Of a stretch of DNA of 64,000 bases, positions 59,943-61,301 are shown piece after piece; position 1 is the stretch's first letter, and each line of letters opens with the position of its first letter. Made by a program: the position numbers and the translations under genes. The notes under the pieces were generated by a model, which was not told the origin of the DNA, did not search any database, and saw only the letters and a program-made list of their open reading frames with translations. Origin of the DNA: Candidatus Bathyarchaeota archaeon (lineage in GTDB: Archaea > Thermoproteota > Bathyarchaeia > Bathyarchaeales > Bathycorpusculaceae); the NCBI GenBank assembly GCA_026014485.1, contig JAOZIE010000023.1, forward strand, positions 404,160 to 468,159, read 5' to 3'.

Positions 59943-60040
59943 AAATAGGGGATGTAGCGTACGCTAAGTGTGCGCTGGACAAAGGGAATCAATTAACACT
60001 TCAAAGTAACCAAAAAAGAAATAAATGAAGAAACGACTTG

Positions 60041-60112
60041 CCCTAACGGCGGGTAAGTGGGCCTCCACCCGTTCCGCCGCAAAGAAACCCCGGTGTCGGA
60101 GGAAAATTTGAC
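60041..60112 (+). ncRNA. structured 5' leader with potential Shine-Dalgarno pseudoknot, candidate translational riboswitch
   Basis: CGGCGG (60047-60052) pairs perfectly with CCGCCG (60074-60079), and inside it GTGG (60057-60060) pairs with CCAC (60065-60068). CCTCC at 60062-60066 in the apical part is complementary to the Shine-Dalgarno GGAGG at 60098-60102. A second small hairpin CCG-GTGT-CGG (60090-60099) also touches that site. The TTG of queC is 10 nt further on. The leader is therefore able to hide the ribosome-binding site. The candidate ligand is a 7-deazaguanine such as preQ0 or preQ1, by analogy with known bacterial preQ1 switches. No match to those is claimed. Confidence 0.45.
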
Positions 60113-60793
60113 TTGAAACCAAATGTTACTGTAAACGATATCCAAAACAAGAAATGTGTTGTTGTCCTCAGCGGAGGACCAGACTCAGCTGTTGTGGCTT
60201 ATTGGGCAAAGAATCAGGGCTACACTGTACACTGTTTATCTTTTAAGTATGGACAAATTGCGGAAAAAGAAACACGGCAAGCTGCCCTCATAGCCCAAAA
60301 GCTGGGTGCCCCCATAAAAATAATCGACGTAACCAGCCTAAAAGAAATCTTTTTGGGGGTTACTTCGCTGTGTGACCGCAACATCGCCTTAACCTCAGAG
60401 TTCACTCAACCCATCGTGGTGCCCTTCCGAAACGCCATCTTCCTAAGCATCGCCGTATCCTACGCCGCAGCAATATGTGCAGAAACCATATTCTATGGAG
60501 CGCACGGCTCTGACGCCGCAAACTATCCTGACTGCCGCGAAGAATTCTACAAATCCATGGCGCAGACTGCACGGCTGGGTACAGAAACAAAACTCGACAT
60601 CAAAGCACCCTTCAGTGGCGTGCCCAAATCTGAGTTGCTCAAAATCGGCAAAGACCTAGGTGTCCCATTTGAGCTTACGTGGTCCTGCTACCTCGACGGC
60701 GAAAAGCACTGCGGCGTATGCGAGTCCTGTGTAAATCGAAAGGCAGCGTTCAAGCAAGCGGGTATAGTTGACCCAACCAAATACGACAGGTGA
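60113..60793 (+). CDS. queC: 7-cyano-7-deazaguanine synthase QueC
   Basis: QueC converts carboxydeazaguanine to preQ0, the precursor of archaeosine in archaeal tRNA. The 226-aa protein has the PP-loop VVLSGGPDSAVVAYW (14-28), the block PFRNAIFLSIAVSYA, GAHGSDAANYPDCREEF, and the zinc site with CYLDGEKHCGVCESC (Cys ligands at the end). TTG start behind GGAGG in the structured leader. It lies 7 bp before a QueT-like transporter gene. Confidence 0.95.
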   Translation: MKPNVTVNDIQNKKCVVVLSGGPDSAVVAYWAKNQGYTVHCLSFKYGQIAEKETRQAALIAQKLGAPIKIIDVTSLKEIFLGVTSLCDRNIALTSEFTQPIVVPFRNAIFLSIAVSYAAAICAETIFYGAHGSDAANYPDCREEFYKSMAQTARLGTETKLDIKAPFSGVPKSELLKIGKDLGVPFELTWSCYLDGEKHCGVCESCVNRKAAFKQAGIVDPTKYDR

Positions 60794-60800
60794 AGCGGTG

Positions 60801-61301
60801 ATGAACAGACGAAGGTTTAGTGCAAAAACGTTGGCTTTGGCTGTAGTTTACGCTGGTTTGTATGCTGTGTTAACTGTTATGCTTGCTCCCCTTAGCTATC
60901 TTGCTGTGCAGGTGCGTGTATCTGATGCGTTGGTCGCGTTGATTCCCCTTTTAGGCTGGGGAGGCATTCTTGGGCACACGGTAGGCGTCTTCATAGCCAA
61001 CCTTTTCAGCACCGCAGGAGGGGTCGACTTGCTAAACACCATCCCCAGCTTCGCGATGGCAGTCGTAGTCTGGAAACTGCGAAACCGAAGCGTCATCGCA
61101 GGCACCCTACTTTACTCGGTTGTCTTGGGTGCAACGGTGGGCGTGATGCTAAGCTACCTGTATGGGTTCCCCCAGCTAGAAACCATCCTATACGTGTTCG
61201 TCGGCATCGCAATTTCAGCAACCGTCATCGGCTACCCCCTCTACAAAGCCATCAAAAAAATAGCCATCCACCTACGCTGGATAACCCCCGAAAAAACATA
61301 A
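60801..61301 (+). CDS. QueT-like ECF transporter S component
   Basis: The 166-aa membrane protein has about five helices: LALAVVYAGLYAVLTVMLAP and then the signature VQVRVSDALVALIPLLGWGGILGHTVG, as in QueT S components that take up queuosine precursors. It lies 7 bp after queC, and the pair links synthesis and uptake of 7-deazaguanines. The ATG at 60801 is preferred, and GTG at 60798 or longer starts inside queC are possible. No EcfT/EcfA is nearby. Confidence 0.88.
   Translation: MNRRRFSAKTLALAVVYAGLYAVLTVMLAPLSYLAVQVRVSDALVALIPLLGWGGILGHTVGVFIANLFSTAGGVDLLNTIPSFAMAVVVWKLRNRSVIAGTLLYSVVLGATVGVMLSYLYGFPQLETILYVFVGIAISATVIGYPLYKAIKKIAIHLRWITPEKT

Follow-up and report, generated by a model that had tools for sequence, protein, structure and literature searches.

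A conserved pseudoknot RNA before 7-deazaguanine synthesis and uptake genes in Thermoproteota is a candidate archaeal riboswitch

The window (the whole 64-kb stretch of Candidatus Bathyarchaeota DNA that was analysed) carries, one directly after the other, the genes for the 7-cyano-7-deazaguanine synthase QueC and for QueT, the S component of an ECF-type precursor transporter (Table 1). The first-pass annotation of this DNA had stated that the two genes make and import preQ-type bases, and the profile matches agree (PF06508, 6e-63; PF06177, 6e-22), as does a wider gene context in relatives that includes QueE and GAT-QueC. The leader in front of queC had been described as a perfect stem of 6 bp with an apical CCTCC that is exactly complementary to the GGAGG Shine-Dalgarno (SD) sequence 31 nt away. 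Both features can be read directly from the sequence, where CGGCGG pairs with CCGCCG. A perfect 6-bp stem with the spacing of this leader occurs once in the window and in none of 100 dinucleotide-preserving shuffles, and the single leader folds with an ordinary energy (z = -0.36). The evidence against chance is comparative rather than energetic, and consists of near-identical elements before queT, queC and queE across Thermoproteota that carry many compensatory changes.

Table 1. Features of the queC-queT locus and its leader RNA, in window coordinates
Feature	Position	Strand	Evidence or remark
A/T-rich stretch at the TATA-box position of relatives, weak here	60012..60029	+	Sequence AAAAAAGAAATAAATGAA; relatives YTTWWA
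P1 5' strand, (C)GGCGG	60047..60052	+	10 same-branch compensatory changes in P1
L1, GUAAGUGGG, consensus GUGAGUGG; putative ligand-pocket strand	60053..60061	+	First six columns 89-100% conserved
P2 5' strand, CCUCC, anti-Shine-Dalgarno	60062..60066	+	46 same-branch compensatory changes with the SD strand
P3 5' strand, ACCCG, extends helix P2	60067..60071	+	3 same-branch compensatory changes
L2, UU	60072..60073	+	98-100% conserved
P1 3' strand, CCGCC(G)	60074..60079	+	P1 compensatory changes
L3, CAAAGAAACCC, consensus nnAUAAACCC; putative ligand-pocket/triplex strand	60080..60090	+	A-AAA-CC positions 98-100% conserved
P3 3' strand, CGG(U)GU	60091..60096	+	Covaries with the ACCCG strand
Shine-Dalgarno GGAGG, P2 3' strand	60098..60102	+	P2 covariation; start-codon spacing
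QueC, 7-cyano-7-deazaguanine synthase, TTG start	60113..60793	+	PF06508; TIGR00364 195 bits, cut-off 150
QueT, ECF-type precursor transporter S component; frame open from 60768	60792..61301	+	PF06177 79 bits, cut-off 33.7

The leader at 60047-60102 belongs to a family of conserved RNAs and spans approximately 56 nt. In most of 163 genomes from the order to which the window belongs, a DNA search located the element immediately ahead of QueT, and a profile search widened the set to 116 distinct sequences. Within the class, which record titles name as Bathyarchaeota, a covariance model matches 187 of 257 genomes, including 98 of the 120 good-quality ones; in a sample of the phylum Thermoproteota it matches 79 of 398. 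The titles of the matching contigs name Candidatus Bathyarchaeota, Candidatus Methanomethylicota and Nitrososphaerota/Nitrososphaeria. Bacterial and viral matches from a pattern scan were dismissed as chance, with covariance-model scores of approximately 15 bits or less compared to 34-81 bits for archaeal copies. As far as searched, the RNA is confined to Thermoproteota.

Structurally, the RNA folds as an H-type pseudoknot. P1 (GGCGG/CCGCC) spans 5-6 bp, and its outer C-G pair, 60047-60079, is formed in the window and paired at the same position in 109 of 172 copies. The second helix is continuous and pairs CCUCC(C)-ACCCG with CGG(n)GU-(n)-(G)GGAGG, which buries the SD. Across the family the connecting loops read GUGAGUGG for L1, UU for L2 and nnAUAAACCC for L3. 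To count compensatory changes, both-side changes that keep pairing on the same branch of a QueT-protein tree (143 sequences) were compared with control registers slid by 1-3 nt. The counts given in Table 1 contrast with 0-1 for slid registers of P1, 0-11 for P2 and 0 for P3. Three of the best four column pairs of the alignment lie in P2, and the next helix pair is in P1. In P3, ACCCG or AUCCG on one strand tracks CGG(n)GU or CGG(n)AU on the other. Judged from aligned sequences, P1 and P2 are strongly supported by compensation and P3 modestly so, with few independent events. Thus, when the leaders of related archaea are compared as the first-pass annotation had proposed, covariation is strong for the stem and for the pseudoknot that it suspected of hiding the SD.

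An alignment that was not fitted to the structure gives the same picture, with 92% of cells pairing compared to 41-60% in slid registers, and a covariation of 0.198 compared to 0.06-0.08, a value that none of 500 shuffles reach. The duplex of the apical strand with its own SD has an energy of -12.6 kcal/mol versus -10.9 kcal/mol with the SDs of other copies (0 of 5000 permutations), in a comparison from which relatedness is only partly removed. Copies also differ in the length of the second helix, from 5 to 9 bp. In one of them (L401), the SD core itself is altered together with its partner (UUCCGA/UCGGAA), and in two others a changed SD is matched by the partner strand (L403, GCUCCG/CGGAGC; L175, AUCAUCUCC/GGAGAUGA). 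An R-scape-style G-test, with a tree null of shuffled substitutions on the QueT tree, placed no structural pair below E 0.9 (top E 0.9-1.7). These weak values reflect a very broad null, and the case for significant covariation is hence made by the branch-event counts together with the pair counts from the unfitted alignment.

Two other arrangements of the leader were considered. The inner 4-bp stem described earlier does exist in the window (GTGG/CCAC, 60057-60060/60065-60068) and appears in the nested fold of the leader, but it is incompatible with the SD helix. Because covariation supports the longer helix of CCUCC-ACCCG with CGG-u-GU-c-GGAGG, this hairpin would be an alternative state at most. 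An inner stem of GGGU/ACCC was rejected, as it breaks in L034 and L044, where P1 swaps G-C to C-G. Separately, three copies (L402, L403 and L110) form a divergent variant in which P1 and the SD pseudoknot are kept while CCCGG is replaced by CCCAAAA and P3 is lost.

Most unpaired positions in L1, L2 and L3 show 90-100% conservation, as much as the helices or more. Loops that are nearly invariant are as expected for an aptamer with a ligand pocket rather than for a simple hairpin that masks the SD, and would therefore mark this RNA as the former. The leader presents a 5' UTR structure that is conserved with covariation, as is looked for in riboswitches.

Among 176 distinct copies, the next gene is QueT for 156, QueC for three and QueE for two. 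The three copies that precede QueC are those of the window, G091 and G093; in G093 the gene is a QueC paralogue with QueT behind it. Both copies that precede QueE are found in Nitrososphaerota, where the best NCBIfam models for the gene product are QueE with scores below the cut-offs. One of the two (L333:4492-6691) lies in an operon composed of the RNA, QueE and a glutamine-amidotransferase/QueC fusion (PF13537 and PF06508), which we take to be the archaeosine synthase GAT-QueC. This operon ties the RNA to archaeosine synthesis. Behind the other (L246) lies a QueE/QueC operon. Approximately nine copies precede a conserved membrane protein of 230 amino acids that has weak profile similarity to QueT and no match in Pfam, NCBIfam or the PDB; it is a candidate for a new 7-deazaguanine transporter. 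Its loci are L356, L358, L367, L371, L375, L376, L377, L380 and L399. All recognisable downstream genes function in 7-deazaguanine synthesis, use or uptake, and the genes that would be regulated (QueT, QueC, QueE and GAT-QueC) fall in one metabolite pathway, as is typical of riboswitches. The riboswitch interpretation of the first-pass annotation is largely right, and the gene context is stronger than that annotation knew.

A transcript start downstream of 60047 had been named as evidence against this interpretation. In 165 upstream regions of relatives, a YTTWWA box is concentrated 30-37 nt upstream of P1, and with archaeal promoter spacing the transcript should begin a few nucleotides upstream of P1, just before the RNA. 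The window itself has a weak box at this position, where the sequence is only A/T-rich. At the other end of the element, the start codon lies 2-13 nt past the SD in 138 of 153 parsed QueT-linked copies, most often at 7 nt.

A scan of the whole window with Rfam 15 at the gathering score detected two tRNAs and nothing else, and Rfam families searched against the leader region with E values up to 10 gave chance-level matches only, so that the leader is not an unrelated RNA known to Rfam. Likewise, an Rfam search of 20 loci, including L333, L246 and L401-L403, gave no match to the RNA. The covariance models for preQ1-I (RF00522), preQ1-II (RF01054) and preQ1-III (RF02680) each lack a match in the window at the gathering score and in the leader at E up to 10, in keeping with the earlier remark that the sequence does not look like preQ1-II. 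The preQ1-II class, known from COG4708/queT leaders of Streptococcaceae, nevertheless shares with the archaeal RNA its location before queT, an SD in the second helix of the pseudoknot and, as predicted for the archaeal RNA, translational control. However, preQ1-II adopts an HLout fold, carries an additional hairpin (P4) and occurs in Bacillota only (PMC11625349). The archaeal RNA lacks a P4, differs in its loop sequences and has a long P2-P3 helix. The preQ1-I aptamer likewise forms a small H-type pseudoknot, has a third loop rich in A and controls queC, queE and queT genes, but it is approximately half the size of preQ1-II and its consensus differs from that of the archaeal RNA. In preQ1-III, likewise found in queT leaders, the SD pairs with an upstream loop, but the RNA extends to approximately 100 nt with five helices and a separate expression platform, compared to approximately 56 nt here.

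Few riboswitch classes are, to our knowledge, known in archaea, and the best-known of them, TPP and fluoride, are common to bacteria. We also know of no preference for preQ0 or archaeosine base among bacterial queuosine-precursor riboswitches. The archaeal TPP and fluoride (crcB) riboswitches belong to classes that likewise occur in archaea (PMC2864571), but these are shared with bacteria and are unrelated in sequence, whereas the present RNA was found only in Thermoproteota. A review of preQ1 riboswitches from 2024 (PMC11625349) does not contain the word 'archaea', and no motif linked to queuosine is named in the main text of a survey of 104 bacterial and archaeal motifs (PMC2864571). A search of openly licensed papers yielded no description of the motif, in agreement with the earlier expectation that an archaeal 7-deazaguanine switch would be new. 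The RNA appears to represent a riboswitch class that is new, restricted to archaea and absent from Rfam 15.

We consider the leader to be quite probably an archaeal riboswitch that turns translation off in response to a 7-deazaguanine, with preQ0 as the likeliest one. The analysis establishes the conserved RNA with its secondary structure and SD pairing, its place between promoter and start codon, and the genes that follow it, whereas ligand binding, ligand identity and the OFF direction are what we infer. A new transcript would begin a few nucleotides ahead of P1. With an ample supply of the 7-deazaguanine in the cell, this ligand would bind at the junction of P1, L1, L2 and L3 and stabilise the H-type pseudoknot in which CCUCC-ACCCG pairs with CGG-u-GU-c-GGAGG. 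The SD would then be buried and translation of queC-queT turned off; in relatives the targets would be queT, queT-queC, queE-queC or queE-GAT-queC. If the ligand is absent, the helix would open, perhaps to the competing state with P1 and the GUGG/CCAC hairpin, and the ribosome could start. Ligand-stabilised SD masking of the kind seen in preQ1-II (PMC11625349) would be the most economical reading by analogy.

The choice of ligand draws on the gene content of the relatives. In archaea, preQ0 is the base that TGT places into tRNA. A TGT gene was detected in 56 of 61 relatives, including the genome of the window itself, in frames that are usually approximately 520-575 amino acids and thus archaeal-sized. 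An ECF T component is present in 60 of the 61, and QueF was looked for and found in none of them. We favour preQ0 over preQ1 because TGT is present, QueF is absent, and the controlled synthesis genes have preQ0 as their shared product. A point against the proposed riboswitch is that TGT could not be detected in three genomes with the RNA and QueT (G098, G099 and G105), where one may ask how the imported base is used.

The same riboswitch might instead respond to preQ1, queuine, archaeosine base (7-formamidino-7-deazaguanine) or guanine, an alternative that we regard as a serious though tentative one. Bacterial queT leaders sense preQ1 (PMC11625349), transporters related to QrtT/QueT vary in what they carry, from preQ1 only to preQ1 with q and Q (PMC11130926), and a gene set that ends in GAT-QueC would also fit sensing of the end product, archaeosine base. 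Nevertheless, QueF is needed to make preQ1 and is missing from every relative, and the controlled synthesis genes all converge on preQ0. The least probable of the explanations considered is that the RNA belongs, as a divergent form, to preQ1 class I, II or III. Although queT and an H-type or HLout pseudoknot with the SD in its second helix are shared features (PMC11625349), the Rfam preQ1 families do not recognise the short leader region even with E values up to 10, and the stem, the loop sequences and the domain of life all differ.

Conserved loops and SD pairing could also be present in a leader bound by a protein or a tRNA, for example by TGT or a pathway regulator, with the SD hidden in the same pseudoknot. 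We find such a control element unlikely given that the conserved unpaired nucleotides surround a compact H-type pseudoknot, which is a known metabolite-aptamer architecture (PMC11625349), that the controlled genes make or import one small molecule, and that the distribution of the RNA is not strictly parallel to that of TGT. More improbable still is that the leader acts without a ligand, as a translation damper or an RNA thermometer whose SD helix would set a fixed or temperature-dependent level of translation. The SD is indeed fully paired, in a helix that varies between copies as noted above, but a thermometer has no need of invariant loops, and L1, L2 and L3 are conserved at least to the same degree as the helices. 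Moreover, the element is bound to one pathway across many families.

The broader proposal is that of an archaeal riboswitch class, confined to Thermoproteota, that senses preQ0 or archaeosine base and controls both synthesis (QueE, QueC and GAT-QueC) and uptake (QueT and the 230-amino-acid membrane protein); for this proposal as a whole we hold belief and doubt in roughly equal measure. If true, SD masking by a pseudoknot under ligand control would be widespread in archaea. The proposal makes testable how archaea control the supply of archaeosine precursors, what archaeal QueT carries, and whether an RNA acts as a sensor for preQ0 or archaeosine base. The RNA might also serve as a marker for further 7-deazaguanine transporters.

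Some relatives with QueT carry other leaders. A second conserved leader, GGUAGUUUCCGUAUAUAACCUACC-UUAAAAAACCGG, has seven copies in the 257 genomes (L116, L133, L118, L129, L115, L142 and L124), always directly before QueT. Six are in genomes without a match to the model of the main RNA, and one is located at a second QueT copy (G063). This leader comprises P1, an AAC before the 3' strand of P1, an A-rich loop 3 and a CCG/CGG pseudoknot, a layout that resembles that of preQ1-I. Because an RF00522 search of these genomes did not detect it, the leader is named preQ1-I-like only. A third, longer leader (GGCGGGnUGAGnUCCGCC ... GGnAAAUCAACCAGCC ... GC-rich hairpin) is found in L114 and L117 of genus g51, approximately 110 nt before QueT and with no Rfam match. 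A further conserved leader, GGCUAAUAAAUAACUUUUGCCU...AGGCUUnAAGAUAAGG, precedes QueT in related genomes (L173, L174 and L163).
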